Below are positions 1 to 23,952 of a stretch of 24,107 nucleotides of DNA, piece by piece (the first letter of the stretch is position 1; the number at the start of each line of letters is the position of its first letter). The notes under the pieces were generated by a model. It had not been told where the DNA came from. It did no database searches and saw nothing but the letters and a program-made list of their open reading frames with translations. The position numbers and the translations under genes are program-made. This stretch comes from a virus, in the IMG/VR virus record IMGVR_UViG_3300021960_000495, positions 1-24,107 of that record; one strand, given 5' to 3'.

Positions 1-122
1 CTTTCTTCAAGATCGCCTGCTTGGTCAATTAACTTATTAAAAAGTTTGATGGCGCGTTTAATGCTAGCTTGCTTCGCTTTTTCAGCAGCTTTAGTTTCAC
101 TTAGTATATCTGTAACTTTCAT
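1..122 (-). CDS. Capsid-targeted protein, N-terminal part only (runs off the left edge)
   Basis: Forty codons are visible from the ATG at 122. The protein starts MKVTDILSE then TKAAEKAKQ and continues as a charged, Lys/Ala-rich helix (IKRAIKLFNKLIDQAGDLEE) to the window edge, so the C-terminal part is missing. The first nine residues fit the T4-type capsid-targeting peptide, with a gp21-like cleavage site after L-S-E. The start sits one base after the TAA of the upstream gene, so it is probably translated by coupling. Its first six bases lie inside the 64-bp direct repeat that also covers the start of the next gene upstream. The function of the body is unknown. Targeting is inferred from the motif; the reading frame is clear. 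Confidence 0.75.
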   Translation of the reverse strand, partial: MKVTDILSETKAAEKAKQASIKRAIKLFNKLIDQAGDLEE

Positions 123-180
123 TTTACTTATTTCTATTATCCATTGTATCTGCTGATGGCGTTTTGCCAGGTTGTATTCC
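117..180. repeat. 64-bp direct repeat, copy 1
   Basis: This stretch is identical to 430-493. It holds the last codons and stop of one capsid-targeted gene plus the first codons of the next. The first mismatches outside it are at 116/429 and 181/494. Confidence 0.95.
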
Positions 181-435
181 TTTTACTTTTGCAGGCTTTG
201 CTGATGGTGTATTACTTGTAACTTTTTTTCCAGCGGCATCCACACTCCATTTATATATCTCTGGATCAAACTCTTGATCCTCATGATCTGATTTTCCAGG
301 GTTCATGTCAATCTCGTCGTTTCCTTTTTTTGGACTGCCATAAGGATTCTTTTTTGGTGCTATATTACTACCAACTGGCGCCTTTGATGTTTTAGGCGTC
401 ATCGGATCTTCTGTTAGTATGTCTGCAATTTTCAT
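124..435 (-). CDS. Small capsid-targeted internal protein, 103 aa
   Basis: The start is taken at the ATG at 435, giving MKIADILTE followed by DPMTPKTSK. An upstream in-frame start would add about 20 residues that merely translate the end of the neighbouring gene. The leader matches the T4 internal-protein targeting peptide, with predicted cleavage after L-T-E. The rest is hydrophilic, rich in Pro, Lys, Ser and Asp, and looks disordered. The C-terminus, GIQPGKTPSADTMDNRNK, is identical to that of the upstream gene because both lie in a 64-bp perfect DNA repeat. It is one base from each neighbour (TAA-A-ATG). It is probably packed into the prohead and ejected; what it does in the host cannot be told from sequence. 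Confidence 0.8.
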   Translation of the reverse strand: MKIADILTEDPMTPKTSKAPVGSNIAPKKNPYGSPKKGNDEIDMNPGKSDHEDQEFDPEIYKWSVDAAGKKVTSNTPSAKPAKVKGIQPGKTPSADTMDNRNK

Positions 436-493
436 TTTACTTATTTCTATTATCCATTGTATCTGCTGATGGCGTTTTGCCAGGTTGTATTCC
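430..493. repeat. 64-bp direct repeat, copy 2
   Basis: Identical partner of 117-180. The two copies bracket exactly one gene-sized unit (the 103-residue cargo gene), so recombination between them would remove or duplicate that gene and leave intact junctions. Confidence 0.95.
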
Positions 494-1078
494 AATCTTC
501 TTTGCAGGTTTTGCTACTGCTGTAGGTTTTGATTGGTCAAACTTAGCAGACGCTTGAGGGTTTGTTGCGGCGCCTGACATATTTGTTGTTGAAGCAATAT
601 TAGCGCGGGGTTTATTTGAACCAAATTCGCCGGCGGCACTAGGAGTTTGTCCTGCCTTGGCACCAGGGTTAACTATAGCTGATTTCTTTGTTTTTGCTAC
701 TGGTGTACCAGCAAACTCACCTGCATCCATTGGTGTTGGTGCTTTCTTTGTTTTTGCTACTGGTGTACCAGCAAACTCACCTGCATCCATTGGTGTTGGT
801 GCTTTCTTTGTTTTTGCTACTGCTGTTGGTTTTGCTACTGGCATACGATCAGCGCCACCTCCTCTTGGTGCAGGAGCGGCCTTTAGTTTTGCTACTGCTT
901 TGCTTACATCAGCGCCCTTGCCACCAAATGCATCTAAGCCAACTGTATTTCTTCTCGCCGCGGCCGCGCGGAATTTATCTGCTATTGGATCTGAGGTGAA
1001 CTTACCTTTAAGCCAATCTAAAAACGAAGCCTCAGATAAAAGGCTATCATTTTCTAATAAAATATCTTTAATTTTCAT
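437..1078 (-). CDS. Ala/Lys/Pro-rich capsid-targeted internal protein with tandem repeats, 213 aa
   Basis: The protein begins MKIKDILLE|NDSLLSE|ASF, which contains two candidate gp21-type sites (L-L-E and L-S-E) within 16 residues. A short amphipathic stretch follows (FLDWLKGKF), then a basic low-complexity body. Residues of about 85-135 are tandem copies of a 20-residue unit, PVAKTKKAPTPMDAGEFAGT, encoded by a 60-bp DNA repeat. It ends in the same GIQPGKTPSADTMDNRNK tail as the downstream gene. A late-promoter-like CATAAATA lies about 30 bases upstream, and this gene heads the three-gene left-end group. The composition recalls T4 internal proteins, which are small, basic and fast-evolving. 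Function after ejection is unknown. Confidence 0.82.
   Translation of the reverse strand: MKIKDILLENDSLLSEASFLDWLKGKFTSDPIADKFRAAAARRNTVGLDAFGGKGADVSKAVAKLKAAPAPRGGGADRMPVAKPTAVAKTKKAPTPMDAGEFAGTPVAKTKKAPTPMDAGEFAGTPVAKTKKSAIVNPGAKAGQTPSAAGEFGSNKPRANIASTTNMSGAATNPQASAKFDQSKPTAVAKPAKKIGIQPGKTPSADTMDNRNK
683..822. repeat. 60-bp tandem repeat, about 2.3 copies
   Basis: Bases 683-762 are repeated exactly at 743-822, a period of 60 with no mismatch over 80 positions. The period equals 20 codons, so copy-number change keeps the frame of the host gene. The perfect identity suggests a recent expansion. Confidence 0.95.
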
Positions 1079-1108
1079 AATTGTGAAATCCTGTAAAAAC
1101 GTTTTATA

Positions 1109-1116
1109 TATTTATG
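1109..1116 (-). promoter_or_regulatory. Late-promoter-like element CATAAATA
   Basis: The minus strand reads CATAAATA, which fits the T4/cyanophage late consensus (TATAAATA or NATAAATA), 30 bases before the ATG at 1078. A perfect 12-bp palindrome (TGCTAATTAGCA, 1115-1126) abuts it on the upstream side. Location between genes supports a real promoter for the left-end capsid-targeted genes. Confidence 0.6.
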
Positions 1117-1137
1117 CTAATTAGCACAATTTTAATA

Positions 1138-2784: not shown

Positions 2785-2788
2785 TTAA

Positions 2789-3076: not shown

Positions 3077-3081
3077 ATAGT

Positions 3082-3089
3082 TATTTATA
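3082..3089 (-). promoter_or_regulatory. T4-type late promoter TATAAATA (PAAR gene)
   Basis: Perfect eight-base match with five bases (ACTAT) to the ATG at 3076. In T4 the element spans about -13 to -6, so +1 falls on the A of the ATG, predicting leaderless mRNA. A second weaker AATAAATA lies at 3105-3112. Confidence 0.75.
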
Positions 3090-3110
3090 ACGTATTATAA
3101 TAACTATTTA

Positions 3111-7592: not shown

Positions 7593-8870
7593 TTAGGCGT
7601 TATAATCACAGTTGCTACAGGCCATAGCACACATATTTAAATTCCCACAATCGCTGTATTCTTTATTAAAAGTGCGAAGAAAGTCATTTTCCGTAGTGTG
7701 GGGAATCCAAGTATTTGCTATAGTATCAAAAAAACCTGTTTTAAATACTCCTTCTATACCGCCATATTTTAAGGCGTTATTAACGTCATTCTTGTAGCCA
7801 AATTCTTTTAACAAGGCTTGAATATCGTAAGTATATGCATTAGCAATTCTAGTATGATTGTGTCCCATCATACAACAAGGATAAACAAATCCGTCTGCTG
7901 TGATGAATACTTTAGATTCTCGTATGGCCAAACAATCTATCTTTCTATTATTCTTTTTTTCGTTTGAAATTCCACGAAGGATTTTGTTAATATCTATATC
8001 TTTGTAATTACTAATATTAGCAACATTCGCAAGGCTATCACGGGCCCAATCAAATTTTTCTACTTCTTCTTCCCACGATCTATCTTGATTGATATATTTT
8101 TCGTGTGTTATGTTTAAAAAGTTCGTATAATTTTTAATATCAATCTGATCAATTGTTATATCCGGATCTTGCAAATTATTTTTAATATTTTCTGTTTCAG
8201 CAGTGAGGAAATTATTATACTCGCTAGTTGTTGCGCCACGCAGTTGCCCTCTGTATTCTCCCTTGCTGTTGTATACTGGAGTATTGTCTGCTCTATCTGT
8301 ATTAATAATTTCTAGTTCTGTAAATTTATAATCTTTTACTAATTTTTCAACGTCTTTCAATTGATGTTGATTGTGCTCAAACAGTATAAACTGTAGCACC
8401 GCATTACCGCCTGCATCTATATATGCTTTGGCGTTTTCTAATACTTTGCTTAGATTTGTGTTTTGTCTATAATACGAATGTACTTCCTGCGTTGTACCAT
8501 CTACGGCAAACCATATCTTAAGATTTTTGTACTTTGCAAAGTTGGCCCAATAATCAGTACTACGCATACCTCCGTTTGTATTAATATTCATATGAACGCT
8601 ATTGTTACTAGAATACAAATACTCTACCATCGCAGGCAAATTAGGATTTGTTTGTGCGTCTCCAACATTACCACAAAAAACTACCATATCTAAATTACTA
8701 ACCATATGCTCTGGCAATAAGACTTTGAACTCATCTAGCGACATATGTTTTTGATAAATTCCTGCTAGTTCACCGTAACCATAATGTGTTCTACTGCACG
8801 AAGGACAAGCCGCGTTACATTTTTCAGTTATTTCAATTTGTATAGCAGTAATATCTTTATAATCATACAT
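7593..8870 (-). CDS. Radical SAM enzyme with SPASM-like C-terminus, 425 aa
   Basis: The [4Fe-4S]-SAM motif is clear: Cys18-x3-Cys22-x2-Cys25 (EKCNAACPSC). The expected beta-barrel landmarks follow: GNVGDAQTNP near 92-101, a NTNGG motif near 117-121, and an Asp in WFAVDGTT. The C-terminal third has extra cysteines typical of SPASM/twitch auxiliary clusters (FVYPCCMMGH, then CGNLNMCAMACSNC at the very end). Enzymes of this class usually modify peptides or proteins; no substrate peptide or leader-binding RRE domain is visible here. It is 6 bases after the nuclease gene and under the same sigma70 promoter, so it is probably made early, yet it sits next to virion genes. The substrate is unknown. 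Confidence 0.9.
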   Translation of the reverse strand: MYDYKDITAIQIEITEKCNAACPSCSRTHYGYGELAGIYQKHMSLDEFKVLLPEHMVSNLDMVVFCGNVGDAQTNPNLPAMVEYLYSSNNSVHMNINTNGGMRSTDYWANFAKYKNLKIWFAVDGTTQEVHSYYRQNTNLSKVLENAKAYIDAGGNAVLQFILFEHNQHQLKDVEKLVKDYKFTELEIINTDRADNTPVYNSKGEYRGQLRGATTSEYNNFLTAETENIKNNLQDPDITIDQIDIKNYTNFLNITHEKYINQDRSWEEEVEKFDWARDSLANVANISNYKDIDINKILRGISNEKKNNRKIDCLAIRESKVFITADGFVYPCCMMGHNHTRIANAYTYDIQALLKEFGYKNDVNNALKYGGIEGVFKTGFFDTIANTWIPHTTENDFLRTFNKEYSDCGNLNMCAMACSNCDYNA

Positions 8871-10815: not shown

Positions 10816-11031
10816 CTAAGATGAAGACTTTTGTTTTTTCTCTTTATTATCAACTTCTACAGCGTCATTGGCTGTAAGTGGAATAGGTTTAACATTAGCA
10901 GTTCCTAAAGTACTAAAACTGCCGTCTGGCTTTGTGCTTTTTTCCTTATCCTTAATACCTACTTTAGTAAGAACTGAGTCTTCAGAAGGAGATTTAGTAG
11001 CCTTGCGTACCGCAAACTCGTATAGTCTCAT
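10816..11031 (-). CDS. Small hydrophilic protein, 71 aa, possible capsid-targeted
   Basis: I chose the ATG at 11031, which overlaps the TAA of the upstream gene by one base (TAATG). An ATG six codons earlier would lie inside that gene. The protein starts MRLYEFAVRKATK, similar in opening to capsid-targeting peptides (compare MRFAEI and MRATEF in this window) but without the usual Leu/Ile-x-Glu cleavage site, so targeting is doubtful. The rest is Lys/Ser/Asp-rich and appears disordered, ending KEKKQKSSS. No family is recognised. Coupled translation with the 121-residue structural gene suggests co-expression late in infection. Confidence 0.65.
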   Translation of the reverse strand: MRLYEFAVRKATKSPSEDSVLTKVGIKDKEKSTKPDGSFSTLGTANVKPIPLTANDAVEVDNKEKKQKSSS

Positions 11032-11396
11032 TACCAAGAAATGTCCCAATAAAACGTGTCATTGGTTGTGGTATTTTTCTTTCTAACAATAGTATATTTT
11101 TTTGAACTAAAATGTGTCATTACTTCTCGCATCTGTTCACTTTTTAGTGTGCTTTCTACATTGCCTTTCCACACGCTGTAAAATGCTTCGCCTGTTGCGT
11201 CATCGTTTGTCATAGGACTACCAGTAATTACAGTACCATTAATAGTAACCGTTGTTGTGTCACTTGACGTTGTTGATAAAGCGTTACTAGCAATGGCGGC
11301 TAATACACGCAATTCTAGTATTGTTATTTCTTGAGCAATTAACTGATTGTCTTGTCCACGATCTCTTGCGTAAGATGCTGTTGGGAAATATGCCAT
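11031..11396 (-). CDS. Small predicted virion structural protein, 121 aa
   Basis: Begins MAYFPTASYARDRGQDNQLI. It has an N-terminal helical segment (about 20-45) and a beta-rich C-terminal half containing Thr-rich strands and ending in FYWDISW. Short proteins of this kind, opening with a Tyr/Pro-rich segment, are typical of virion components in T4-like marine phages, but I cannot name a T4 counterpart. No enzyme motif, signal or membrane segment is present. It lies 3 bases after the upstream stop and overlaps the downstream start by one base, so it belongs to a translationally coupled string. Confidence 0.75.
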   Translation of the reverse strand: MAYFPTASYARDRGQDNQLIAQEITILELRVLAAIASNALSTTSSDTTTVTINGTVITGSPMTNDDATGEAFYSVWKGNVESTLKSEQMREVMTHFSSKKYTIVRKKNTTTNDTFYWDISW

Positions 11397-11399: not shown

Positions 11400-11792
11400 T
11401 TATGTTCTCTTTTTTAATGCTCGTTTAGCCATTGTGTCAACTGTGTTTTGACTTGGCTCATCAATATTTGCCTCATCTGAGACATCTATATCTATTTCTT
11501 CTTCTGTGTTTAGTGTGATAAAGTCTTTGTCAAAGTTCTTTATTAAATTTTGGATGCTTGGAGTCATGTCATAAATTTGTTTGAAACTACCAAAGTCAAT
11601 AACATGCCCCAAGTTTCTCATAGTATGAACTAGTTCTACAAAACTTATTTTGTTGTCGCCCATATCAGCTGAATTATCTGCACTTTTAAGTTCATGATTC
11701 AATATAGTAGTTAAGGCTTCGACCATATCGTCGTCCGATGGACCTTCTATAATATTGCTCTCAGCAATGCTAGTTATTTCAGCAAAACGCAT
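11400..11792 (-). CDS. Acidic protein with capsid-targeting-like start, 130 aa
   Basis: The start is taken at the ATG at 11792, one base after the upstream TAA. A longer start would only translate the end of the previous gene. The opening MRFAEITSIAE|SN resembles the T4 internal-protein peptide, with Ile-Ala-Glu as the cleavage site. The body is acidic and helical, with a Glu/Asp-rich segment near residues 95-115 (TEEEIDIDVSDEANIDE) and a basic end (KRALKKRT). Next to the 382-residue core-like protein, and with this charge pattern, it could be a prohead core or scaffold component, or cargo. I cannot decide between them. Confidence 0.75.
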   Translation of the reverse strand: MRFAEITSIAESNIIEGPSDDDMVEALTTILNHELKSADNSADMGDNKISFVELVHTMRNLGHVIDFGSFKQIYDMTPSIQNLIKNFDKDFITLNTEEEIDIDVSDEANIDEPSQNTVDTMAKRALKKRT

Positions 11793-11793: not shown

Positions 11794-12942
11794 TTATTCG
11801 CGCTCTTCTCTACCTTCTGGTGCATCTTCGCCGGCAGCTACATCAGCAGTTGCAAACTCTTCTTCAGCAGGTAGTTCTTCAACAGGTGCTTCTACAGGAA
11901 CTTCTTCAGCACCCATTTGTTCTGCTGGTGCTTCTTCGCCTGTAATAACTCTGCTTGCTTGTGCAAGTGTTTCACGACCATCGCCTAAAGATTGCACTAA
12001 TCCATCTAATGTCGGAATCGCAATTGCGGAGTATGCTTCGCTCATTTCAGAGCCAAGTTCATTACGCATTGCGTCTAATAGTGGTGGTAAATCTTCGTTG
12101 CGTAGCTTGCTTAAATCATCAACTGCTTTTTGTACTCTATCAACAATATCTTTTGATGCTAGTAGCAATTCTGCTTGGTCTTCTTGACTTTCATATAACT
12201 TACGTAGTTTATCTGAGATTTCAACTTCTGTTGATTCTAAGCCAAGTGACTTCTTTGCTCTCTTATCAATATTTTTTAGCAGTTGTACATTTGCCATGCC
12301 GGAACGCATAATATCGTCTAGCATGTTAAGAAGAGGAAGGAATGTTTTAACATACATAGCAGGAACAGATTTACCATTCATTGCCATTTCAATTGCGGTC
12401 TTTGCTCTTTGCATATTTTGCCCGCCAACTAAAATACGAAGTGCTTGCAAACCTTTGGAATCAAATTCGTATTTTTCCTCTTTATCTTTCTTCTCATGCT
12501 CATCAAGTTCAACTGACTCGTTTTTTTGCTTTTTAGCAATTGCTTTTTGTAAACCAGCAGGAAGTTTTTTCTGCTTTGCAGATAATCCTTTTGGTGCTTC
12601 GTCGTCCTTCTCAGCGTCTTTTGCGGCATCTTTCATTGGTTCTTTAGTGTCGCCATCTTTATCCAAATCTAAAAAGTCTGGTTTTGCTTCTTGAAGTTCT
12701 TCAATGTGCTTTTGTAAGTTTTCTCTAATGAAAACTTTTGCTAGGTATGATTTTGATTTGTGCAAACTGTGTCTATCTTCTGATAGTCGTTGCTTTTTAA
12801 TCTCTTCATTAACAGTTAGTAGTAGTTTTTGCGTATGATCTAAATCTAATTTAGAAATATCCACTTTTACGCCAAATGCGTTCTGAATATTGTTGCTAAA
12901 CTCTCCTGCTGTAACAGGTTTATTCATTTCTTTTAAGTTCAT
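11794..12942 (-). CDS. Predicted prohead-core/virion protein with acidic tail, 382 aa
   Basis: The opening MNLKEMNKPVTAGEFSNNI is of a type seen in large virion-associated proteins of cyanophages. Residues of about 100-125 read IEELQEAKPDFLDLDKDGDT: a gp21-like L-Q-E site followed by an Asp-rich DLDKDGD loop that looks calcium-binding. A Lys-rich linker follows, then helical segments, and the last 45 residues are very acidic (repeats of EEVPVEAPVEELPAEEE). Charge-segregated, helical, protease-site-containing proteins fit a prohead core role, but this is inference. AATAAATA (12977-12984) lies 34 bases upstream and a GGAAA ribosome site precedes the ATG. Confidence 0.78.
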   Translation of the reverse strand: MNLKEMNKPVTAGEFSNNIQNAFGVKVDISKLDLDHTQKLLLTVNEEIKKQRLSEDRHSLHKSKSYLAKVFIRENLQKHIEELQEAKPDFLDLDKDGDTKEPMKDAAKDAEKDDEAPKGLSAKQKKLPAGLQKAIAKKQKNESVELDEHEKKDKEEKYEFDSKGLQALRILVGGQNMQRAKTAIEMAMNGKSVPAMYVKTFLPLLNMLDDIMRSGMANVQLLKNIDKRAKKSLGLESTEVEISDKLRKLYESQEDQAELLLASKDIVDRVQKAVDDLSKLRNEDLPPLLDAMRNELGSEMSEAYSAIAIPTLDGLVQSLGDGRETLAQASRVITGEEAPAEQMGAEEVPVEAPVEELPAEEEFATADVAAGEDAPEGREERE

Positions 12943-12976: not shown

Positions 12977-12984
12977 TATTTATT
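12977..12984 (-). promoter_or_regulatory. Late-promoter-like element AATAAATA
   Basis: Fits NATAAATA, 34 bases before the ATG at 12942 and overlapping the stop of the upstream gene by two bases. Spacing leaves room for a leader with the GGAAA ribosome site. Confidence 0.5.
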
Positions 12985-13474
12985 AGAAAACGCAATTATA
13001 ATATAGTTGTGTTAAGCTGTCTTTTGCTTCCTGAGCATTTGATATATAGGTTGCTAGTCTAGCTTCTATTAATTCTACTTTAAACCAATCGCTTTCGTCA
13101 GCATAGTGCTTCATTCTTTCTTTTGATATCAGTAATTTTTCTAAAGCACAACCATATTTCGTGTCTTGGATGCTCGCTTCTTTAAAATTAACGTCGTCAC
13201 CGTTAGTATAGAATATAGCCATCATAATAGCAGCCTTCTTTGTGTATATATTCTTCTCAATAACAGAATAACCCCTATTATACCCCTTCTTTAGCACATA
13301 ACCATGGTTATTAAGTGTTACCTGAATATCTCCTATCTTAATACCCTTATTGAGTTTCTTAACATTCAAATAGTGCAATCTTCCAGTTTTTTCAAGACGA
13401 CTATTCAACGATGTATACATATCTGTAAAGACTGAATCGATTCGTTTGTCGTTCTTGTTTTTATTTTTCTTCAT
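12983..13474 (-). CDS. Hypothetical phage protein, 163 aa
   Basis: Starts with a very basic MKKNKNKNDKRIDSVF, followed by a mixed alpha/beta body with a strand-turn pattern (IKIGDIQVTLNNHGYVLKKG), a hydrophobic helix (KKAAIMMAIFYTNG) and a C-terminal helical part. There is no targeting peptide, catalytic motif or membrane segment that I can defend. The bases before the ATG read GTTAAATA plus five bases, a poor late-promoter match at the same five-base spacing seen at three perfect ones, so leaderless late expression is possible. No clear Shine-Dalgarno. Conserved proteins of this size occur in T4-like marine phages without known function. Confidence 0.75.
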   Translation of the reverse strand: MKKNKNKNDKRIDSVFTDMYTSLNSRLEKTGRLHYLNVKKLNKGIKIGDIQVTLNNHGYVLKKGYNRGYSVIEKNIYTKKAAIMMAIFYTNGDDVNFKEASIQDTKYGCALEKLLISKERMKHYADESDWFKVELIEARLATYISNAQEAKDSLTQLYYNCVF

Positions 13475-13510: not shown

Positions 13511-14347
13511 TTACTGGCCCGCAATCATATTGACAATTGTATTACCGCGATGGCCAACTTGCTTATACCATTTACTATTTTGTAGTTCTTTTGCGGCTGT
13601 TTTCCAATCGCCGGCTGACGCCGCGGCGGAAAACTTTGGCCAACTCTTATGCCAATTTGGGCCCATATTATATGCTAAATCAACCATCGCTTGCTTACGC
13701 TTTTGGTCTGCCAAGTTATAGCCAGGAGTTGTTCTTGCACCTTGTACGTGATGATCAAAGTCCTTATTAAACATTTCATCTGCTTGTTTGTCTGTAATAC
13801 CTTTGGAAAAGTCTTCGCCGGGTTTAACCAAATGTCCGTATCCAATTGTGTTCTTGCCGACCGTGTCTTTATAAACTTCTAAGCGTTTGCCTTCATGTTG
13901 CTTAATCATATTCTTAAGAGCATTTACATCACCAAACTCTTTATCGTATGGATCTTGTTCAATTGTTTGTGCTACTTGTGTTTTTGTTTGTAGATCAGGC
14001 TGTGGTGTGTTTTGTTTTACTGCTGTTGCGCCGCCGGCTGCTAAGGCCGCGCCTGCTACTGCGCCAGTTGCTTTCTTTTTCCAATCTTCGTTTAATATAT
14101 CTTTATATAGTGACACTTGTATTTGAGACTCGTCTAGTTTAAAGTTACGTGTATACGCTATCTTGCCTTCAACTTTTATACGTTTGAGAATATCCTTCTT
14201 AACTAAGCCATTAGCAATCCATTGCTCATGCTCGTTTAAATCTCTTTTAAATACTCTCTTATCAGTATATTTTAACAGATAATCACTCTCTTGTAAATTA
14301 ACATAAACAAAATTTACATTAGGGTGTTGTATTTGTGCAAATCTCAT
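13511..14347 (-). CDS. T4-type lysozyme (GH24) with N-terminal extension and internal capsid-targeting peptide, 278 aa
   Basis: Residues of about 142-278 are a T4-lysozyme domain: Glu152 (KQHEGKR), Asp161 (VYKDTVG) and Thr167 (NTIGYGH) reproduce the T4 Glu11/Asp20/Thr26 spacing exactly. It should cleave the host murein glycan. Before it are an Ala/Gly-rich hydrophobic stretch (94-110) and an 80-residue domain of unknown type. At 78-88 the protein reads VSLYKDILNE|DW, a capsid-targeting-like peptide whose Val codon is GTG (14116), a possible internal start giving a 201-residue targeted lysozyme. Full-length translation starts at ATG 14347 behind AGGAAA. It could be an ejected entry lysozyme or the endolysin; the internal peptide favours the former. 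Confidence 0.9.
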   Translation of the reverse strand: MRFAQIQHPNVNFVYVNLQESDYLLKYTDKRVFKRDLNEHEQWIANGLVKKDILKRIKVEGKIAYTRNFKLDESQIQVSLYKDILNEDWKKKATGAVAGAALAAGGATAVKQNTPQPDLQTKTQVAQTIEQDPYDKEFGDVNALKNMIKQHEGKRLEVYKDTVGKNTIGYGHLVKPGEDFSKGITDKQADEMFNKDFDHHVQGARTTPGYNLADQKRKQAMVDLAYNMGPNWHKSWPKFSAAASAGDWKTAAKELQNSKWYKQVGHRGNTIVNMIAGQ

Positions 14348-14356: not shown

Positions 14357-14701
14357 CTATAGGGTTCCAGTAAATTTCGTATTTGTTTTACGATCCTTCC
14401 ACTCTGTTCCTTTTGGCTTTTCAACGGTTCTAGTTATTTTAGCACTAATGCCCGGAACTTTTGTTTTAGTTGTTTTTTTACTAACAGGATCTCTTTTATA
14501 TTCTGTATAACCACCGCCATCAAACTTTGTTTTAGTTTGTGCTTTATAATTACTTGACGTTTTTTTGACTGTTGGATCAACTTTATTTGGTCCGTCCCCG
14601 TATATGTCATAAAATGGCGAGTGCCCTGCACTAGCATCAGCAGTCCAACCTTTATGTGCTGGACGTGGTGATCGTTCTATTAGTATTTCACAAATCTTCA
14701 T
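14357..14701 (-). CDS. Basic disordered capsid-targeted protein, 114 aa
   Basis: Starts MKICEILIE|RSPRPAHKGW, a good capsid-targeting peptide with cleavage after L-I-E. The mature part is strongly basic, rich in Lys, Thr and Gly, with little predicted structure; a short GHSPFYDIYGDGPNKVDPT segment is the only non-repetitive part. The ATG overlaps the upstream TGA (ATGA), so it is translationally coupled to the preceding capsid-targeted gene. It resembles T4 internal proteins I-III in being a small basic passenger. No function can be assigned. Confidence 0.82.
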   Translation of the reverse strand: MKICEILIERSPRPAHKGWTADASAGHSPFYDIYGDGPNKVDPTVKKTSSNYKAQTKTKFDGGGYTEYKRDPVSKKTTKTKVPGISAKITRTVEKPKGTEWKDRKTNTKFTGTL

Positions 14702-15276
14702 TTCTTTTTCCTAAGTTTTGGCGCGCCGGATAAAAACGGTCTTGTAAACCATAGTTTAAACCAGTCTTCATCTCCGGGTTCCAAGCCTAACTCATGCTCT
14801 TTGCGCCTAATACCAGTAGCAGTTTTGCTCATATTTTCTTTAACTTCTTTATTTAGTTTGGTTAACTCATACTGTACCATGTCGCCTTGGTCTTCAATGT
14901 ATGTGTTATAGCCTAACTGTCTAGCAAACTTTTGTACCATTCTAGTATAAAGTTTTGTTCTGCTTGGATTTGTGCCAGTGTTTCCTTTCTCGCCAGAGAA
15001 AAATATCATTTCGGGACTGCGTTCTTTAATAAACTTTTGTATAGCATGTAAAACTGTAGCAAATATTTTATAAGCATCGCCTTCACCAGTTACATCTAGA
15101 CTATTACCTCTGTGAAACTCTACTTGATATTCCTCGTTGCCTTCGTGATTAAACATAATAAGCAGTGTTGTGCCATCGGGTAGTTTAGCAAATGCTCTCG
15201 CATCGCCGTCCGTGCCTTCTTCCCAGCTTAACGGATATGGTTTATCAAATGTTTCAAGCAGTTCTTCTATTTTCAT
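14698..15276 (-). CDS. Capsid-targeted protein with conserved alpha/beta domain, 192 aa
   Basis: Leader MKIEELLE|TFDKPYPLSW, with cleavage after L-L-E. The body is a real folded domain (about 10-140): beta strands around FAKLPDGTTLLIMFNHEG and YQVEFHRG, a helix DAYKIFATVLHAIQKFI, a strand MIFFSGEKG, then SRTKLYTRMVQKFARQLGY. The last stretch, with Ser-Arg followed by a Tyr/Arg helix, recalls the acetyl-CoA site of GNAT-like domains, but I see no proof of activity. Domains of this form are frequent as capsid-targeted proteins in cyanophages. The C-terminus is basic (LRKKK). AAAGG precedes the ATG. The next gene overlaps by four bases. Confidence 0.83.
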   Translation of the reverse strand: MKIEELLETFDKPYPLSWEEGTDGDARAFAKLPDGTTLLIMFNHEGNEEYQVEFHRGNSLDVTGEGDAYKIFATVLHAIQKFIKERSPEMIFFSGEKGNTGTNPSRTKLYTRMVQKFARQLGYNTYIEDQGDMVQYELTKLNKEVKENMSKTATGIRRKEHELGLEPGDEDWFKLWFTRPFLSGAPKLRKKK

Positions 15277-15324: not shown

Positions 15325-16452
15325 TTACCCAATCATTCCCTCGGTTACTCCTTGTTCATATGATAGATCCGGATTGCCTGCCCATCTATTCATCCAACGA
15401 CCCCATTCATCATAAAAGTGACGCATACCTTCCTCATCGTGAATTGTTGGATCACCATCAGCATCAACCTCATGTCGGCCGTGTAGAATTCTGCGAGCAT
15501 CCGCATACTCATTCATTGTAGCCTGTTGTGTGCTTACTGCGAGTAAGTCCTCATGTAGGTTACGACCAAACGGTCCCCAAATACTATTGTGATGCCGTTG
15601 TCTAATCAAACGCTCTTTCGGCGTGTCACTCTTGAGTCCAAGACCACGAAACTCAATCATCACCTTGTCTGGTGCAATTGGTGTCATAATGTCACATCGT
15701 AGTGCTGACCCTCTTAGGTTGAAGTTGACCCCTGGGAAGAAGTCTATCATCTCCCAGTGATTAGCGGGTAAATGTGGAAACGATAACTCATCCCTAGACT
15801 CAGAACCTTCATACTGGTCATACTGCACCTCAAACGAGCCTACGTTTATGTGTCCGTTATCAAATCCAATATTCTTACGAGCAAAGTAGGAGTCATTGAA
15901 CCCTGTTACACGATTGTGGTAGTGTAGATAGTCATGGTAAAACTCCGAGTTAGTGTCATGCCATAACTTATAGTTGCAAGGTATGATGGCCTTGTGATAG
16001 TGAAAGACCTCCAACGGCTCTGCGTCTAGGGACTTTTGCATACAATCAAATGATCCTGATGCCCACTCCTCGACTGTCTTGTCCATCTCCTCGTTTAGTG
16101 TGACCCATATGAATCCACCATACTTGACCTCGGTTCTTATTGGAGAAGCATCGTAAATATCTAATGCTAATGTGCCAGCAGGTTGACTGATACTCTGGTT
16201 ATGATATGCCTTTATCTCTTTATCTGATATACGAACTACAATGATTGGCTGCATCGCAACAGTCATTGTACGAAAAGAATTTGTTTTAGGTAGTTCAGAT
16301 TCGTGACATACTGGAACCCACACCTTTGAAAATATCTTTTCAATTTCTTCTTCAAATATCTTTTTGTCGGAATATATTCGACTATCAACATACTCACCAC
16401 TGTTGATCTTACCTGGAATCCTGTTCCACTGTTTATAGTTTCTTGCTGGCAT
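15325..16452 (-). CDS. Rieske-type oxygenase alpha-subunit relative lacking the Rieske cluster motifs, 375 aa
   Basis: Residues of about 20-85 follow the ring-hydroxylating oxygenase N-terminus (RIYSDKKIFEEEIEKIFSKVW, HESELPKTNSFRTMTV, then PIIVVRISDKEIKAYHNQ). Where Cys-x-His and Cys-x2-His should bind the 2Fe-2S cluster it reads NQSISQPAGTLAL, with no Cys or His pair, and the cluster loop is largely deleted. The C-terminal mononuclear-iron domain seems kept: NYKLWHDTNSEFYHDYLHYH (160-179, candidate Glu170, His173 and His177 or His179) and Asp302 in LHEDLLAVSTQQ. It therefore cannot receive electrons in the usual way. Sampled G+C is somewhat higher than in its neighbours, which suggests transfer. 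It sits inside the capsid-cargo operon but has no targeting peptide. Confidence 0.85.
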   Translation of the reverse strand: MPARNYKQWNRIPGKINSGEYVDSRIYSDKKIFEEEIEKIFSKVWVPVCHESELPKTNSFRTMTVAMQPIIVVRISDKEIKAYHNQSISQPAGTLALDIYDASPIRTEVKYGGFIWVTLNEEMDKTVEEWASGSFDCMQKSLDAEPLEVFHYHKAIIPCNYKLWHDTNSEFYHDYLHYHNRVTGFNDSYFARKNIGFDNGHINVGSFEVQYDQYEGSESRDELSFPHLPANHWEMIDFFPGVNFNLRGSALRCDIMTPIAPDKVMIEFRGLGLKSDTPKERLIRQRHHNSIWGPFGRNLHEDLLAVSTQQATMNEYADARRILHGRHEVDADGDPTIHDEEGMRHFYDEWGRWMNRWAGNPDLSYEQGVTEGMIG

Positions 16453-16454: not shown

Positions 16455-16769
16455 TTATTTTTTACCTGATTTCATGTTAGCACACCAGTGATACATTTTG
16501 CCTTTCTCACCGCTATACTTTTTTGCTTTTGCCCTAAGGCTGCTTATAGAACCTTTACAACTTGCGCCTGCACGTTTTACTCTGCCCGGCCGGCTTTTAC
16601 CTTTTACTTTACCATCTTTAAAGTTTTCGTTTGTAAGTAGTTTTGGCTTTCCGCTACCAAGTCCTAACTTTTTAACATTAGCAAACTCGCTTCCAATTGG
16701 AGCGTCTTTTGTAGCGTTTTGTTTTGTAATAATGCCTACTGCTTCGTTTATAAATTCTGTTGCTCTCAT
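16455..16769 (-). CDS. Basic two-cysteine capsid-targeted protein, 104 aa
   Basis: Leader MRATEFINE|AVGIITKQN, with cleavage after I-N-E. A linker follows, and then a very basic C-terminal module (about 58-104) containing a Cys in GASCKGSISSLRAKAKKY, a Gly/Lys segment and HWCANMKSGKK, that is, two cysteines about 25 residues apart among Lys and Arg. I know such modules only from T4-like marine phage proteins. The charge suggests nucleic-acid binding and the Cys pair could bind metal. The stop is 2 bases before the Rieske-like gene. Proposed role: packaged protein that coats or follows the DNA. Confidence 0.82.
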   Translation of the reverse strand: MRATEFINEAVGIITKQNATKDAPIGSEFANVKKLGLGSGKPKLLTNENFKDGKVKGKSRPGRVKRAGASCKGSISSLRAKAKKYSGEKGKMYHWCANMKSGKK

Positions 16770-16771: not shown

Positions 16772-17110
16772 TTATTTTGTAGCAACGTTTTTTGCTTTAC
16801 CCTTTCTGTTTTTGTTTGGGTCTTTCCTACGCTTACGGTTGGCAGCTGTCTTACGACCCTTCTTGCCTAATGCGTGTGCTTTCTTTTGTGGTAAGCATTT
16901 TGGCTTGCCCTCGCCTTTACTTCCCCTAGCGCAGTCACCACGGATTTTTCCGTCAGGGCCAAAGCGTACCCACTTCTCATCAAACCATTTCTTTAAGTCT
17001 TCATTAACACTTTCTGCGTAATATGGATTCTCTGGATCTGCATCGTCGGACTCATCAGGCCACCAGTCTAAATTACTATAGTTTTCTGTAATAATTTCAC
17101 TAATTTTCAT
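16772..17110 (-). CDS. Basic two-cysteine capsid-targeted protein, 112 aa
   Basis: Leader MKISEIITE|NYSNLDWW, with cleavage after I-T-E; a second possible site follows at SVNE (about residue 36). The first third is acidic. The C-terminal module is strongly basic and conserved-looking: KKWFDEKWVRFGPDGKIRGD, then CARGSKGEGKPKCLPQKKA (Cys pair), then Lys/Arg-rich KGRKTAANRKRRKDPNKNRK. This module recurs in cyanophages. The Cys pair and charge suggest a small metal-stabilised nucleic-acid binder. The ATG overlaps the upstream TGA by four bases, and a perfect TATAAATA lies 46 bases upstream inside the preceding gene. Confidence 0.84.
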   Translation of the reverse strand: MKISEIITENYSNLDWWPDESDDADPENPYYAESVNEDLKKWFDEKWVRFGPDGKIRGDCARGSKGEGKPKCLPQKKAHALGKKGRKTAANRKRRKDPNKNRKGKAKNVATK

Positions 17111-17727: not shown

Positions 17728-18354
17728 TTATTTTTTCTTACTCTTGTTGCCCCAGTTCTTTGCGCCAACTTTGCGACATTTTACTAGTGCGCCACTTGCG
17801 TAAGCACTTGGCCAAATTTTGTAACGCGACTTTACTTTACGGTAGCAAGCGTCTTTCTCGCCTTCTTCTAGTTCATAACTTTCTACGGTTACTGTTGCTT
17901 TCTTTCGTGCAAGTTCACCAATAACTCTATACTTTTCTGCTCGTGATCTCTCATCTTCAAAGTGTATCATACCAGATGAATTATCAACATCAATGTAATA
18001 GTTCATTCCTTGTATTCTTACTTCCGCACCATCTGGACTATTAGGATCTGTCGCAATGATCATATTGCCCTGTGTACGCACAACCTGATATTGTGCCTTC
18101 CCACCACCTGGTTGGGCAACCATAAATGGAGTGCCAGGCGGCATTTGTTTTTGTATAAATCTTGTTTGCTCTGCTTCTGTGTATTTAGGTTTAATAACAA
18201 TGCCTCTAGCGTTGTCCATGTCAATGCGCTTGTCTCGTAAATCCACTACGATTTCAGTTTGGTCACCTTGAGAACCTAATAGTGGTAACTCGTCTCCGCT
18301 AACCGGACCTGCGACTTGGTACATGGCTTCAGTAAATAGTTCTGCTAGTTTCAT
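17728..18354 (-). CDS. Capsid-targeted protein with basic two-cysteine C-terminus, 208 aa
   Basis: Leader MKLAELFTE|AMYQVAGPVS, with cleavage after F-T-E. The middle (about 30-140) is a beta-rich domain (EIVVDLRDKRIDMDN, GGKAQYQVVRTQGNMIIATD, MNYYIDVDNSSGMIHFEDE). Near 160-168 is another protease-like site, SYELEE|GEKD, which would release the last 42 residues: KDACYRKVKSRYKIWPSAYA, then SGALVKCRKVGAKNWG and a Lys tail. That basic module, with two cysteines, recurs in marine T4-like phages. The ATG overlaps the upstream TGA by four bases. Two cleavages would yield a separate beta domain and a basic peptide in the mature head. Confidence 0.83.
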   Translation of the reverse strand: MKLAELFTEAMYQVAGPVSGDELPLLGSQGDQTEIVVDLRDKRIDMDNARGIVIKPKYTEAEQTRFIQKQMPPGTPFMVAQPGGGKAQYQVVRTQGNMIIATDPNSPDGAEVRIQGMNYYIDVDNSSGMIHFEDERSRAEKYRVIGELARKKATVTVESYELEEGEKDACYRKVKSRYKIWPSAYASGALVKCRKVGAKNWGNKSKKK

Positions 18355-18623
18355 TTGTTTAACCTTTGCTTCATAATACTTGCTGGGTTAGTTCTCTTTG
18401 TTCTTGCGGCCTTTCTTGCTATTCTTGCTCCTAATTTTGCTTTAGTCATTTTTAATCTAAAACGCTTTTTAATATCTGGAGCGGCAAAACACTGGGCAGG
18501 CTTACCCACAATACGGCCCTTGCGTCTACCAGCCGTACAGCGATATTTACGAACAAGTTTATTACCTTGTCGTTGCCACGCCATTTTTGTTTCTGCTATA
18601 TTATAAAGTTCTTCTAAATACAT
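18351..18623 (-). CDS. Small basic two-cysteine capsid-targeted protein, 90 aa
   Basis: Leader MYLEELYNIAE|TKMAW, with Ile-Ala-Glu as in T4 internal protein III. Almost all of the mature part is a basic module: NKLVRKYRCTAGRRKGRIVG, then KPAQCFAAPDIKKRF, then Arg/Lys/Ala-rich repeats ending in TKRTNPASIMKQRLNK. The two cysteines are about 18 residues apart. The module is familiar from cyanophage proteins. Charge and size fit a DNA- or RNA-binding protein packed with the genome. It is the first gene of the cargo run; ACTAAATA seven bases before the ATG is a poor late-promoter candidate. Confidence 0.83.
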   Translation of the reverse strand: MYLEELYNIAETKMAWQRQGNKLVRKYRCTAGRRKGRIVGKPAQCFAAPDIKKRFRLKMTKAKLGARIARKAARTKRTNPASIMKQRLNK

Positions 18624-20748: not shown

Positions 20749-20803
20749 ATGTATACCTTATAATATGCTACTATTATATTTAGTGTAGACTATTTAGTCA
20801 AAT

Positions 20804-20833
20804 AAAAAGCGGGATATTTCTATCCCGCTTTTT
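20804..20833 (-). terminator. Rho-independent terminator, copy 1 (bidirectional shape)
   Basis: Perfect 8-bp stem GCGGGATA/TATCCCGC with loop TTTC at 20809-20828, A-run on one side and T-run on the other. It lies about 50 bases after the stop of the 108-residue gene. Confidence 0.92.
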
Positions 20834-20841
20834 GAGTACAT

Positions 20842-20864
20842 AGTTTTCAGCAATGCTAAAAACT
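20842..20864 (-). other. Stem-loop between the stop of the 108-aa gene and its terminator
   Basis: Ten-base arms (AGTTTTCAGC and GCTAAAAACT, one mismatch) around a 3-base loop. It may protect the 3' end of an abundant mRNA or serve as an auxiliary terminator. Confidence 0.55.
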
Positions 20865-20880
20865 GTGATTTTTCGCTAAA

Positions 20881-21207: not shown

Positions 21208-21260
21208 TTTTATAATCTCCTTTATCTTGTAATGTATAGATTCCTCTATACCGTTACTAG

Positions 21261-21268
21261 TATTTATA
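21261..21268 (-). promoter_or_regulatory. T4-type late promoter TATAAATA (108-aa gene)
   Basis: Perfect match 53 bases before the ATG at 21207, directly after the terminator of the preceding gene. The leader includes a GGAGA ribosome site. Confidence 0.85.
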
Positions 21269-21280
21269 CCGTTCAGTCAC

Positions 21281-21310
21281 AAAAAAAGCGGGATATTTCT
21301 ATCCCGCCTT
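21281..21310 (-). terminator. Rho-independent terminator, copy 2
   Basis: Same 20-base hairpin as at 20809-20828 (stem GCGGGATA/TATCCCGC, loop TTTC, here 21288-21307) followed on the minus strand by seven Ts. It ends the 123-residue gene transcript. Confidence 0.93.
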
Positions 21311-21332
21311 TAAATAAAATGTATATTTTCTA

Positions 21333-21704
21333 TTATAGAACGTATGTTTTTGCTGTTACTGTTGCTGATGCAAAGTTTACAGAATCGACTATACCCAAAT
21401 CAATTAAAACATCTTCTAAGTGGGCGGCCAATGTTTCACTGCTTGAACCATCGTATGTATCTGTACCGTAGTTACCCTCAACACATACTGAAAGGTTATT
21501 GTCTGCACTATGTAGTGGGCCGATAATTACAATGTTAAAGCCTGCGCCTTGAATTGCATCCATGGCAGATGCTACTGCTGATGCTGGGCCTAGCTTTCCT
21601 GAAACGTCTGCGCCAAAATCAATATCTAAGTGTGCCAATGTTTTACCTAGAAAATTGGTGCTAAGACCAAATGATGCAGGTACTGTTCTTGTTACTGAAG
21701 CCAT
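21333..21704 (-). CDS. Small, probably abundant virion protein, 123 aa
   Basis: Starts MASVTRTVPASFGLSTNFLG. An alpha/beta pattern follows: strand LAHLDIDFG, helix ASAVASAMDAIQGAG, strand FNIVIIGPL, strand LSVCVEGNYG, helix SETLAAHLEDVLIDLG and a final pair of strands ending TVTAKTYVL. No family is recognised. A perfect TATAAATA (21727-21734) starts a short leader with AGGAG, and the 20-base hairpin terminator follows the stop, making a single-gene late unit. It is likely a major virion protein. The helix-strand order parallels the 108-residue neighbour. Confidence 0.88.
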   Translation of the reverse strand: MASVTRTVPASFGLSTNFLGKTLAHLDIDFGADVSGKLGPASAVASAMDAIQGAGFNIVIIGPLHSADNNLSVCVEGNYGTDTYDGSSSETLAAHLEDVLIDLGIVDSVNFASATVTAKTYVL

Positions 21705-21726
21705 TTTTAATCTCCTAATTTACTAC

Positions 21727-21734
21727 TATTTATA
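21727..21734 (-). promoter_or_regulatory. T4-type late promoter TATAAATA (123-aa gene)
   Basis: Perfect match 22 bases before the ATG at 21704. It predicts a leader of about 17 bases carrying AGGAG at a good distance from the start. Confidence 0.87.
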
Positions 21735-21742
21735 CTAAACTG

Positions 21743-22459
21743 TCAACGTTTAGTTACTGGGCCACCTTTCATAACTCCAGATTTTATAAACTTACCTATT
21801 GCAGTACCCACTAGAGCACCTGCGCCAATAGCGGCTGCTGTGCCTACCCAGCTCTTGTTGCTTTGTTCTGGATTCTTAGCACCTTTAAGTTCATAACCGC
21901 CTTTACGCATAAATCCTTCGTATGATCCACGTAAATCACTTTTAGGTGTTTTGGCTCTTAATGCTTGAAGCAGTCTTGTTGAACTTGTTTTACGTTCACT
22001 TCCATATAATCTATGCCAGTCACTTAACAATCTTCTTACTGCGCTGTAACCACCATTACTAACTCCTAAGTTTCGTTCTAAGGACATAAGGAATTGTTTA
22101 TCAAAGTTAGGATTACTTTTACCTTGTGCTACGTCTCTAAGATAACGCTTAAACTGTAAGATAGGCATACTTGCTCTGCCTACTGGGCCAATTTGTGCTT
22201 CGTATCTTGAAGGATTATTAAACACTGCTACCCAATTGTGTAGGTCAGTGCCTGTTTGTCTAATATTGCTGAAGTCTTGATACTGTAAAGTCTTTCTTGC
22301 ATATTCAGCTGCCTGTCTTGCGGTATTAGGATCATTACGCATTGCTTGAAGCGACAGCACAGACAAGTAAATATTTTCTGCAACCTGTTCTGCACTAAGT
22401 TTTAGGCCACGCTCTGTTCGCAACGCCCTTGCTTCTGTTAAATCTTTTATAAATTTCAT
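21743..22459 (-). CDS. Capsid-targeted helical protein with hydrophobic C-terminus, 238 aa
   Basis: The start is the ATG at 22459, which overlaps the upstream TAA (TAATG). The only earlier in-frame candidate is a TTG inside the previous gene. The leader MKFIKDLTE|ARALRTERG is close to T4 MKTYQEFIAE. The body is helical and Arg/Ala-rich. Near residues 205-222 is a Gly/Ala hydrophobic segment (VGTAAAIGAGALVGTAIGKF) of membrane length, followed by a basic end (KSGVMKGGPVTKR). A packaged protein with a membrane-active end could help carry DNA or proteins through the host inner membrane. That is inference; no homologue of known function is recognised. Confidence 0.84.
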   Translation of the reverse strand: MKFIKDLTEARALRTERGLKLSAEQVAENIYLSVLSLQAMRNDPNTARQAAEYARKTLQYQDFSNIRQTGTDLHNWVAVFNNPSRYEAQIGPVGRASMPILQFKRYLRDVAQGKSNPNFDKQFLMSLERNLGVSNGGYSAVRRLLSDWHRLYGSERKTSSTRLLQALRAKTPKSDLRGSYEGFMRKGGYELKGAKNPEQSNKSWVGTAAAIGAGALVGTAIGKFIKSGVMKGGPVTKR

Positions 22460-23952
22460 TATTTCCAAGCCTTTATGTCTAAAAAGTTTCTTCGTGAAAA
22501 CTCTAATCTATCCACTAACTTTACGGCATTGCCAATTTTATCAATTGCTACAAATCCTTCAGGATCGGCAACCTCATAACCATCATCTGTTTTATAAAAC
22601 ATACCAATACTTTCTACTCTATTAAGTTTTCTAATTAGTATTTGCTTAACTTGGATAAGTTGTTTATATACTGCTAATACTCCTAAAAGAGCATTACTAT
22701 TATCCTCAATAAATTGTCTGTTTGACTCAATATCTTTTAAGCGAGCCTGACCTGCAGGCCCGTCGATTCCAGTTTTTAGTTTATCAATCTCTTTTTGTTT
22801 ACGATCATCGTAGTAGTTTATAAAATCTTTTAAAAATTGCGTAGCGTTTGATACTTGGCCTTCACCTGACTTAATTCTACTATTAACAAAGGGTTCAATT
22901 AACTTCTTAAACTCTTTATTTTTCATAATATTATTAAACGACTGAGGATTAACCTTTTGTATCAAACCACTTATTTTTTCGATTCCGCGTCTTACTGAAT
23001 CTGTTTCTTTTGCTGTTAAGGTAGCAAGTCCTGTTAAATCTTTGTATGTAGCGTCATCTGAAAAAACTTTTGCTGTACTCTTTGGTGCTACTGGACCGTA
23101 TTGTGCCGACATATCACCTAACTCAGGACCACCCACATACTGCGTATGCCAAACTACACCAATTTCAGATGATAACATCTGTTTTGCTAATTTACTATCT
23201 TCCGGAACAGCATATGTTATTAATTGTGGTTTGAAAACAATATAACTCTCACCATTAATTTTTTCTGTTTTTAAATCCTCTTTTGCAAAGAGAATATCGC
23301 CTTGTAAAATACCTTCTATACCTAACTTTTTAAAATGCTTGAGTGCAAGCATTAGTTTGTTTTGTAGACCAGGCGATTCGTGATTTTTTCTAATATCTGC
23401 GGGTGTTTTGTTTAACTTCGGACTCTTGTTAAATATGCTTTTAGTAGCAACAAAGAACCTACCATCTTTTGGATCTTTCCCAGCAAATATAGCAGGACTG
23501 CCGTCCCACTTAGTTGTTACTTTTGCTTTCTTACCGCCGTGCCCAGACAACATGCCAGCAACACTAGCAAGATGATTTAATGCCTTTTTTGCACCATTAA
23601 GTCCTTCATAGAATACTAAATCCTCTAAGTGAGTCATGTGTGTATTCTTACCTTCTGCTTCTAGCAATGTCCACTTTGCCATGTCCTTGCTTTCCCCGAA
23701 TCGATATGTTCTTTCTTCTCTATTTGATCTTTCTTCTCTATTTGGCCTGTCATGGCTAGGGATCGGTTTTCTTTTAGTTACTGGCTTGTTGGGTTGTTCT
23801 TCGCTCTCTTCATCGTCTAATCCGATAAGATTAGCGGCGCCAGCAACTGCACCTTTTAAAAACTTTTCTACTTTACTGGCTGCTTTATTTTCCCAAGAGT
23901 CTGGGTTGGTGCCTTTATCCCAATTACCCTCGTTTAAATCAGATATCTTCAC
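22459..23952 (-). CDS. Capsid-targeted protein with ligase-like motifs and two targeting peptides, 497 aa
   Basis: I place the start at GTG 23952, giving MKISDLNE|GNWDKG; an ATG eight codons earlier is possible. Residues of about 30-90 contain a hydrophobic patch (KFLKGAVAGAANLIG) and a duplicated NREERS/NREERT stretch. At residue 91 (ATG 23682) a second targeting-like peptide begins, MAKWTLLE|AEGKNTH, after which the body starts. Motifs recall the nucleotidyltransferase/ligase superfamily: TTKWDGSPA (K148-x-D-G, motif I), GILQGDILF (motif III-like), YIVFKPQLI, and near the end EGFVAIDKIGNAVKLV (motifs IV/V of RNA ligases). The wide motif spacing makes activity uncertain. Similar bodies occur in cyanophages. 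Confidence 0.82.
   Translation of the reverse strand: MKISDLNEGNWDKGTNPDSWENKAASKVEKFLKGAVAGAANLIGLDDEESEEQPNKPVTKRKPIPSHDRPNREERSNREERTYRFGESKDMAKWTLLEAEGKNTHMTHLEDLVFYEGLNGAKKALNHLASVAGMLSGHGGKKAKVTTKWDGSPAIFAGKDPKDGRFFVATKSIFNKSPKLNKTPADIRKNHESPGLQNKLMLALKHFKKLGIEGILQGDILFAKEDLKTEKINGESYIVFKPQLITYAVPEDSKLAKQMLSSEIGVVWHTQYVGGPELGDMSAQYGPVAPKSTAKVFSDDATYKDLTGLATLTAKETDSVRRGIEKISGLIQKVNPQSFNNIMKNKEFKKLIEPFVNSRIKSGEGQVSNATQFLKDFINYYDDRKQKEIDKLKTGIDGPAGQARLKDIESNRQFIEDNSNALLGVLAVYKQLIQVKQILIRKLNRVESIGMFYKTDDGYEVADPEGFVAIDKIGNAVKLVDRLEFSRRNFLDIKAWK

Follow-up and report, generated by a model that had tools for sequence, protein, structure and literature searches.

The virus record IMGVR_UViG_3300021960_000495 of IMG/VR, analysed here at its complete length of 24,107 bases and referred to as the window, raises the question of why a dozen of its genes, whose products otherwise have little in common, open with variants of one short peptide. 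A precedent is found in bacteriophage T4, where the internal proteins IPII and IPIII carry the capsid targeting sequence MKTYQEFIAE and the full set comprises three internal proteins and Alt. The internal protein propeptides are 10-19 residues long (PMC9026906). The first-pass annotation proposed that a T4-like capsid-targeting and cleavage leader is carried by many different proteins, and our analysis supports this. By calculation, leader-like starts exceed chance in the window and its relatives, their ends are retained amongst orthologues and have the form of the predicted gp23 cleavage site, the bodies behind them are mostly basic, and in phage PA5oct such starts are enriched amongst proteins whose record notes carry the mark of electrospray ionization tandem mass spectrometry (ESI-MS/MS); relatives also encode an S77 prohead protease. 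We consider it highly probable that the leaders are T4-type capsid-targeting propeptides and that most of the twelve proteins are packed and cut, and moderately probable that most of the twelve are ejected into the host.

All twelve peptides listed by the first-pass annotation were found at the starts of minus-strand genes. With a bar marking the predicted cut, MKVTDILSE|T (96-122) opens a gene truncated by the left end of the window (1-122), whose full-length orthologue in the relatives G002 and G011 has 199 residues; MKIADILTE|D (409-435) opens 124-435 (103 residues; mature isoelectric point (pI) 9.1); and MKIKDILLE|N (1052-1078) opens 437-1078, a 213-residue protein with 68% identity to its G002 counterpart, which starts MKISEILVE. 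MRFAEITSIAE|S (11760-11792) opens the acidic 130-residue product of 11400-11792 from an internal ATG at 11792, the same start being called in G001, G002 and G012. There follow MKICEILIE|R (14675-14701) on 14357-14701 (114 residues, pI 10.0), MKIEELLE|T (15253-15276) on 14698-15276 (192 residues, DUF6934), MRATEFINE|A (16743-16769) on 16455-16769 (104 residues, pI 10.4), MKISEIITE|N (17084-17110) on 16772-17110 (112 residues, a phrog_727-type basic cysteine domain), MKLAELFTE|A (18328-18354) on 17728-18354 (208 residues, phrog_727 C-terminal domain), MYLEELYNIAE|T (18591-18623) on 18351-18623 (90 residues, pI 12.0) and MKFIKDLTE|A (22433-22459) on 21743-22459 (238 residues, pI 10.4). Finally, MKISDLNE|G (23929-23952) opens 22459-23952, a 497-residue DUF6267 (phrog_455) protein with a predicted RNA-ligase-like fold; it needs a GTG start at 23952, and the same gene in G012 reads MKISDLHE with an ATG start.

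The leaders are 8-11 residues long, and the L/I-x-E cut form ascribed to them holds for 11 of the 12 but not for MKLAELFTE, which ends F-x-E and whose orthologues end L-F-E in G001 and I-T-E in G016; none ends A-x-E. The bodies were said to be unrelated, which is true of most of them. An all-against-all BLASTP comparison of the twelve returned a single pair, 124-435 and 437-1078, with a common C-terminal tail of 28 residues at 86% identity, and 16772-17110 and 17728-18354 share a phrog_727 label while matching different parts of that family. Once trimmed of the leader, 9 of the 12 bodies have a pI above 8, compared with 3 of the 21 other window proteins (p = 0.0003), these three being a lysozyme, the product of 12983-13474, and that of a gene at 10816 with a degenerate leader. 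The T4 internal proteins are likewise described as basic (PMC9026906).

To count leaders we used a strict motif, ^M[KR].{2,6}[LIFM].E, applied at the first ATG of non-overlapping open reading frame (ORF) calls. The motif was written after the peptides had been seen; it catches 8 of the twelve, the other four being missed through start rules or Tyr2, so that the window count is conservative, and in every genome it also counts some probable non-leader starts while missing T4 IPI and Alt. In the window it matched 8 of 31 ORFs, where shuffling of residues 2-31 over 500 rounds gave an expectation of 0.41 and a maximum of 3; expectations from the same null follow each count below in brackets. The near-identical relatives gave 8/45 in G001 (0.48), 12/55 in G002 (0.67) and 8/89 in G011 (0.84), and the more distant ones 13/207 in G012 (1.91, maximum 8) and 16/394 in G016 (3.47, maximum 11), with a weaker 8/263 in G014 (2.39) that equals its shuffle maximum of 8. 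Since the motif was defined post hoc, the tests in G012-G016 and in PA5oct outweigh the window count.

These counts bear on whether the leaders are a functionless bias of gene starts, in which A/T-rich early codons yield M-K-I-x-E. A few such starts do occur in several phages, and since gene starts have their own residue composition we added a position-specific null of 2000 draws, covering the window, G002, G012, G014, G016 and T4. The 9 of 256 strict starts of T4 lie within it (p = 0.28), and G014 stands out modestly (p = 0.023), but the observed count was reached in none of the 2000 draws for the window (expectation 0.41), G002, G012 or G016, which this bias cannot account for. Amongst records lacking an S77 match, N4 (0/69), lambda (0/69), HTVC010P (0/62) and T7 (0/46) have no such start at all, and phiKZ has 2/349 (3.08). 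As the L/I-x-E ends moreover survive substitutions and indels amongst relatives, we regard a mere start bias as very improbable. The claim that there are more leaders per genome than in T4 stands with a caveat: the strict motif finds 8-16 per record of this lineage and T4's count falls within its null, but the motif skips two T4 leaders and includes probable false starts everywhere.

Retention amongst relatives provides the second line of evidence. The whole window found no megablast match amongst phages. Against G002 it shows 79-100% identity across most genes, and across the lineage the orthologues differ in the sequence and length of the leader yet retain a [LIVMF]-x-E end: leaders of the 17728 family measure 9 residues in the window, 8 in G001, 9 in G012 and 12 in G016, and those of the 18351 family 11 in the window, G001 and G012 and 8 in G014 and G016. 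In the 16455 family, MRATEFINE of the window is replaced by MKIAELTE in G012 although the body start is about 90% identical over 48 residues. From G012 to G014 or G016, a short motif within the first 13 residues is kept in 15 of 16 leader pairs as against 25 of 43 pairs of other proteins with the same motif (Fisher p = 0.0075), the leader set including two families, 30866 and 136536, that are probably not true leaders. Under a different criterion, which asked for a site no more than 3 residues from the aligned position, 33-52% of internal [LIVMF]-x-E sites were retained where local identity was below 65%.

The cargo itself turns over. For the gene at 14357-14701 (MKICEILIE), neither G001 nor G002 yielded a match at E 1e-5, an apparent gene gain or loss; conversely, G002 has a leader gene (40023-40790, MKIEDIIKE) flanked by its counterparts of 1138-2784 and 437-1078, an interval of only 59 bases in the window. 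Gene 16455 encodes 104 residues in the window and 349 in G001, where it has an insert, and gene 16772 encodes 112 and 252 residues, respectively, in each case with the leader unchanged. Such turnover and size change fits a constant leader on changing bodies, to judge from the sequences compared. Pfam returned nothing for nine of ten proteins, namely eight leader proteins of relatives and the window's 21743-22459, and a weak OAR match for the long G001 form of 16455. The insert of that form (G001 21889-22938, L033:4389-5438), which the window form lacks, also has a ParB-like nuclease match barely above the cut-off.

One cargo family, DUF6267, is large, with 463 phage records, and many of its distant members have an [L/I]-x-E leader immediately ahead of the domain, including MKFTQFLAE in DLP6, MLRFKQYLAE in L007, MIKFKEFISE in L016, MNKFLEFLTE in L014 and FSKYITE in Melnitz. 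In the window's DUF6267 protein, another possible cut, LLE|A, immediately precedes the domain.

We then considered what might cut the leaders. An S77 protease (PF03420) and gp23 (PF07068) are encoded close together in G012, G014 and G016. G012, of 201,690 bases, has a ribonucleotide reductase 91% identical to that of the window; the gp22 scaffold position between its S77 and gp23 genes is occupied by a gene for a 366-residue protein that contains 26 [LIFM]-x-E sites. No S77 match was obtained in G001-G005, G007-G011, G013, G015, G017 or G019-G022, records that may be fragments. The T4 gp23 propeptide has 65 residues (PMC9026906), and its end, SFLTE|AEIGG, aligns by eye with GYLTE|AATAG in G012 and QYLSE|AA in G014 and G016, where the sites are predicted. 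The form of this predicted LTE|A or LSE|A cut of the relatives' gp23 recurs in cargo leaders ending DILTE, DILSE, ELFTE|A and KDLTE|A.

In the T4 leader, residues 4 and 7 are reported to serve chiefly in targeting and residues 8 and 10 in processing (PMC9026906); they correspond to P7, P4, P3 and P1 counted back from the cut. We compared these positions in 44 leaders chosen by eye, many of them mutual orthologues; the list leaves out the lysozyme and strict matches judged non-leader-like (for example MKRKTRTILEE, MRENLVE and MKYVKNNMLYE), and also lacks a few such as MRANVFLAE and MRLKEITE of G016. P3 is L/I/F/V and P1 is E in all 44, by selection; P7 is hydrophobic in 59% and P4 in 45%. Judged by these counts, the processing half of the signal agrees well with T4 and the targeting half only partly. 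The residue after Glu, which is A in 16 and one of A/S/T/G/N/D in 38, speaks, together with the gp23-like form of the leader end, against the idea that the leaders address proteins to the baseplate, tail tube or replication compartment with no prohead-protease cut. Some neighbours of the leader genes do resemble tail or other structural genes, and the mass spectrometry (MS) marks on PA5oct leader proteins described below do not prove a location in the head, but there is also no leader excess in the five S77-negative controls (nor in most S77-bearing ones), and on balance we find such an address unlikely.

A few leader proteins of relatives recall gp23 beyond the cut. In G012 (L156 record, 200629-201087), G011 (53018-53260) and G016 (281826-282659), the sequence after the predicted cut resembles the start of the same phage's mature gp23, reading AATAGATASGNIA in G016 with 13 of 18 residues in common, compared with 9 of 18 in G012. 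By eye, a similar gp23-like start is seen in S-SM1 152805-153353, annotated as a major head protein. These proteins perhaps carry a copied gp23 arm that would bind the shell.

Virion evidence was sought by proxy. The named gp23 closest to that of G012 is from PA5oct-type Pseudomonas jumbo phages (Arenbergviridae), at 66.5%. The PA5oct record notes mark 93 proteins 'ESI-MS/MS', which from the label 'structural protein' we took to mean purified virions. A strict leader is present on 6 of these 93 proteins and 4 of the 339 other ORFs (p = 0.0085), and, at 50-150 residues only, on 3 of 19 and 2 of 243 (p = 0.003). The six are MKINDIITE, MKILEMAE, MKLFEVFTLYE, MKIKDILVE, MRLNEINLIE and MKILEFNLTE, of which MKINDIITE and MKIKDILVE resemble leaders of the window; for its size, however, PA5oct has fewer strict leaders (10 amongst the 432 ORFs examined) than the window's lineage, and most cargo bodies have no PA5oct match at E 1e-3. 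The MKIKDILVE gene occupies the place of the window's MRFAEITSIAE gene, between relatives of 11794-12942 and 11031-11396; since the profile of the 11400 family did not have the PA5oct protein among the matches listed, it is a positional counterpart only. Two PA5oct homologues of other proteins discussed here are MS-marked, EST35_0349 for 14698-15276 and that of the lysozyme. For the G012 protein at 108205 (MKSLKQYITE), the PA5oct homologue is MS-marked and opens with MKSFRDYYD; this G012 protein and G016 231628 (MKNFREILE) match PHROG families annotated 'head and packaging, virion structural protein' (E-values of 5e-22 and 1e-26, respectively). In S-SM1, the cytidylyltransferase T4-GC190 is reported from the purified virion (PMC3037559), and its S-SM1 sequence starts MKKFSAFLNE|A.

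Several results weigh against this picture of packed and cut cargo. No S77 gene was found in the 24-kb window, and at the two targeting positions, P7 and P4, the 44 leaders match the T4 signal only in part. None of ten S77 records outside the lineage has a strict-motif excess above the shuffle maximum: T4 9/256 (3.24, maximum 10), Melnitz 6/202 (1.92, maximum 10), the first marine candidate HTVC008M 1/187 (1.95, maximum 7), Syn9 5/199 (1.71, maximum 6), P-SSM2 6/308 (2.64, maximum 9), S-PM2 3/238 (2.00, maximum 7), DLP6 2/233 (1.41, maximum 6), KVP40 7/381 (3.73, maximum 13), G006 5/166 (1.28, maximum 5) and G018 4/176 (1.64, maximum 8). The presence of an S77 protease thus does not by itself entail many leaders. 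Of the bodies, that of 11400 is acidic and two others lie close to neutral, and the DUF6267 homologues of P-SSM2, S-PM2, Syn9, S-SM1, L025-L028 and G006 lack a leader as called. Amongst the MS-marked proteins of PA5oct there is no enrichment of a looser motif (15/93 versus 38/339, p = 0.14), 87 of the 93 have no strict leader, marks are also found on enzymes such as ribonucleotide reductase, and EST35_0349 begins MHLFELFDQIEKY, again with no strict leader. T4-GC15, mentioned alongside T4-GC190 in PMC3037559, starts MTTYLNQTTEG and lacks L/I-x-E. Lastly, the proteins of this phage are known from sequence, from which we infer that they are packed, cut and ejected and that they act in the host.

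Taking both sides together, we favour a model in which an 8-12 residue leader, mostly with an M-K/R start, hydrophobic residues and an L/I-x-E end, would bring each protein into the scaffold core of the prohead during head assembly, as in T4. The S77 prohead protease found in relatives would then cut after Glu, as predicted for gp23 at LTE|A, and the freed, mostly basic bodies would remain with the packaged genome and enter the next host alongside it, again on the T4 pattern. The leader would act as a module, with cargo gained, lost, lengthened or shortened and leaders swapped at the junction, but the L/I-x-E end preserved. Individual cargo proteins would probably act in the first minutes of infection, for instance in anti-restriction, like T4 Ip1-3, or in repair.

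A different fate of the bodies has to be weighed here. The leaders may be cut and the proteins located in the head, yet serve mostly as scaffold, core or DNA-condensing components and not as injected effectors, a reading that shares packing and cutting with the model just described, so that the likelihoods we give the two overlap. The mostly basic bodies would suit such roles, as would the head-assembly aberrations of T4 mutants lacking IPIII (PMC9026906). Against them, T4 ejects its internal proteins along with Alt, and both Alt and Ip1-3 are active inside the host (PMC9026906, PMC12373910); near-identical phages differ by gains and losses of cargo genes, unlike essential core genes; and an enzyme-like domain is found amongst the cargo. 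We therefore hold a mainly structural role to be rather doubtful, and injection remains our preferred reading.

That enzyme-like domain is DUF6267. In 12 sequences, several of them near-duplicates, K58-x-D60-G61, E375-G376-x-V378 and K388 are invariant and in ligase order, K-x-D-G being ligase motif I. A structure model of the window protein from residue 91 onwards (407 residues; mean predicted local distance difference test (pLDDT) score 82, with the first 14 residues below 50) was compared by VIA-align. Naegleria RNA ligase filled the first 13 rows at Z 7.9-8.3 and T4 Rnl2 and Rnl1 appeared at Z 5.9-6.1, with helical DnaK rows in between (Z 7.2 and 6.6), and a Z near 8 can arise by chance. 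Foldseek gave a best E of 0.15, which is not significant, and the sequence had a single match in the PDB, at E 0.15, to an unrelated regulator. DUF6267 was absent from the papers among the literature matches listed. Like the three ligases, the protein has K-x-D-G followed by E-G-x-V and a later K; it differs from them in a large helical insertion and in an identity of 10-14% in the cited ligase rows. From the invariant residues in ligase order and the structure-comparison rows, we predict with moderate confidence that it is an RNA-ligase-like nucleotidyltransferase; the earlier mention of ligase-like cargo is upheld to that extent, on modest support.

How, then, does the window compare with known systems? 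As with the T4 internal proteins and Alt, the short N-terminal leader ends hydrophobic-x-E, the bodies are mutually unrelated and mostly basic, and an S77 prohead protease (here in relatives) goes with a site form common to gp23. It differs from them in phage lineage, in the 8-16 strict starts per record (some of them false), in leaders that are mostly of the 9-residue form M-K-I-x-[DE]-I-L-x-E, and in some larger, enzyme-like cargo. In SPN3US and phiKZ a prohead protease also cuts head proteins after Glu and many proteins are ejected (PMC5694885), a cut that we predict here from the leader ends; unlike the twelve leaders, several SPN3US propeptides exceed 100 residues and have the motif A-X-E, and phiKZ has neither an S77 match nor a leader excess. 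That varied proteins may be packed via a leader in T4-like phages has been published (PMC9026906), as has the use of the leader to find injected proteins in T-even phages, whose relatives are reported to have at least ten internal proteins (PMC12373910). We found no account of such a leader in marine or Arenbergviridae phages, in a search that left subscription papers outside and so does not imply absence from print. Within the literature searched, what appears new is the number of leaders per genome, the lineage in which they occur, the signs of leader exchange and of cargo turnover, and an RNA-ligase-like protein as cargo.

If the tag can be read in this way in large marine phages, candidates for injected proteins could be listed from sequence alone. 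Such lists would supply candidates for early counter-defence in phages with mostly unannotated virion proteins, together with short tags by which proteins could be loaded into heads. In T4, each of the three proteins Ip1-3 blocks its own GmrSD restriction enzyme (PMC12373910). More tentatively, and with the odds in our view against it, a large marine T4-like lineage may use an exchangeable capsid tag of 8-12 residues to load at least a dozen injected proteins that change quickly, amongst them an RNA-ligase-like enzyme, which could mend tRNA or other RNA that immediate host defences have cut. Such an enzyme would arrive in the cell together with the genome.

The lysozyme had been counted amongst the leader-bearing twelve, and here the first-pass annotation was mistaken. 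This T4-type lysozyme gene (13511-14347, minus strand) starts MRFAQIQHPN, which is none of the twelve peptides. It has a possible leader of 20 residues (14288-14347) ending VNLQE|S, which is conserved in relatives, with 19 residues in G014 and G016, and which we regard as a possible candidate, longer and weaker than the twelve; T4 IPI, which starts MKTFKEFTSTTTPVSTITE|A, likewise has a long leader. A second possible site, ILNE|DWKKK, lies about 100 residues in, just ahead of a glycine/alanine-rich stretch and of the lysozyme domain; judged by eye, the start of the MS-marked PA5oct lysozyme falls close to the corresponding position.

Other minus-strand genes lie amongst those of the cargo. The 71-residue product of 10816-11031 has a leader-like start, MRLYEFAVRK (MRLYEFVVRK in G001 and G002), with no x-E end; its G016 orthologue reads MRLKEITE|P, and the window gene perhaps has a leader that lost its cut site. 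The acidic 382-residue protein of 11794-12942 and the 121-residue protein of 11031-11396 are relatives of the MS-marked PA5oct proteins 156341-157528 and 157843-158178, respectively; both are neighbours of the cargo genes, and the former is not cargo by its leader. A radical-SAM protein (phrog_21308, 7593-8870) and a 375-residue protein with no PHROG match (15325-16452) also stand amongst the cargo genes with no leader; the latter looks like a Rieske-type oxygenase. The T4 late promoter sequence, TATAAATA, occurs six times on the coding strand (minus strand, at 3089, 7590, 10797, 17163, 21268 and 21734) and not at all on the other. One of these boxes lies 53 bases upstream of the leader gene 16772-17110, an arrangement that is no more than suggestive as regards expression.

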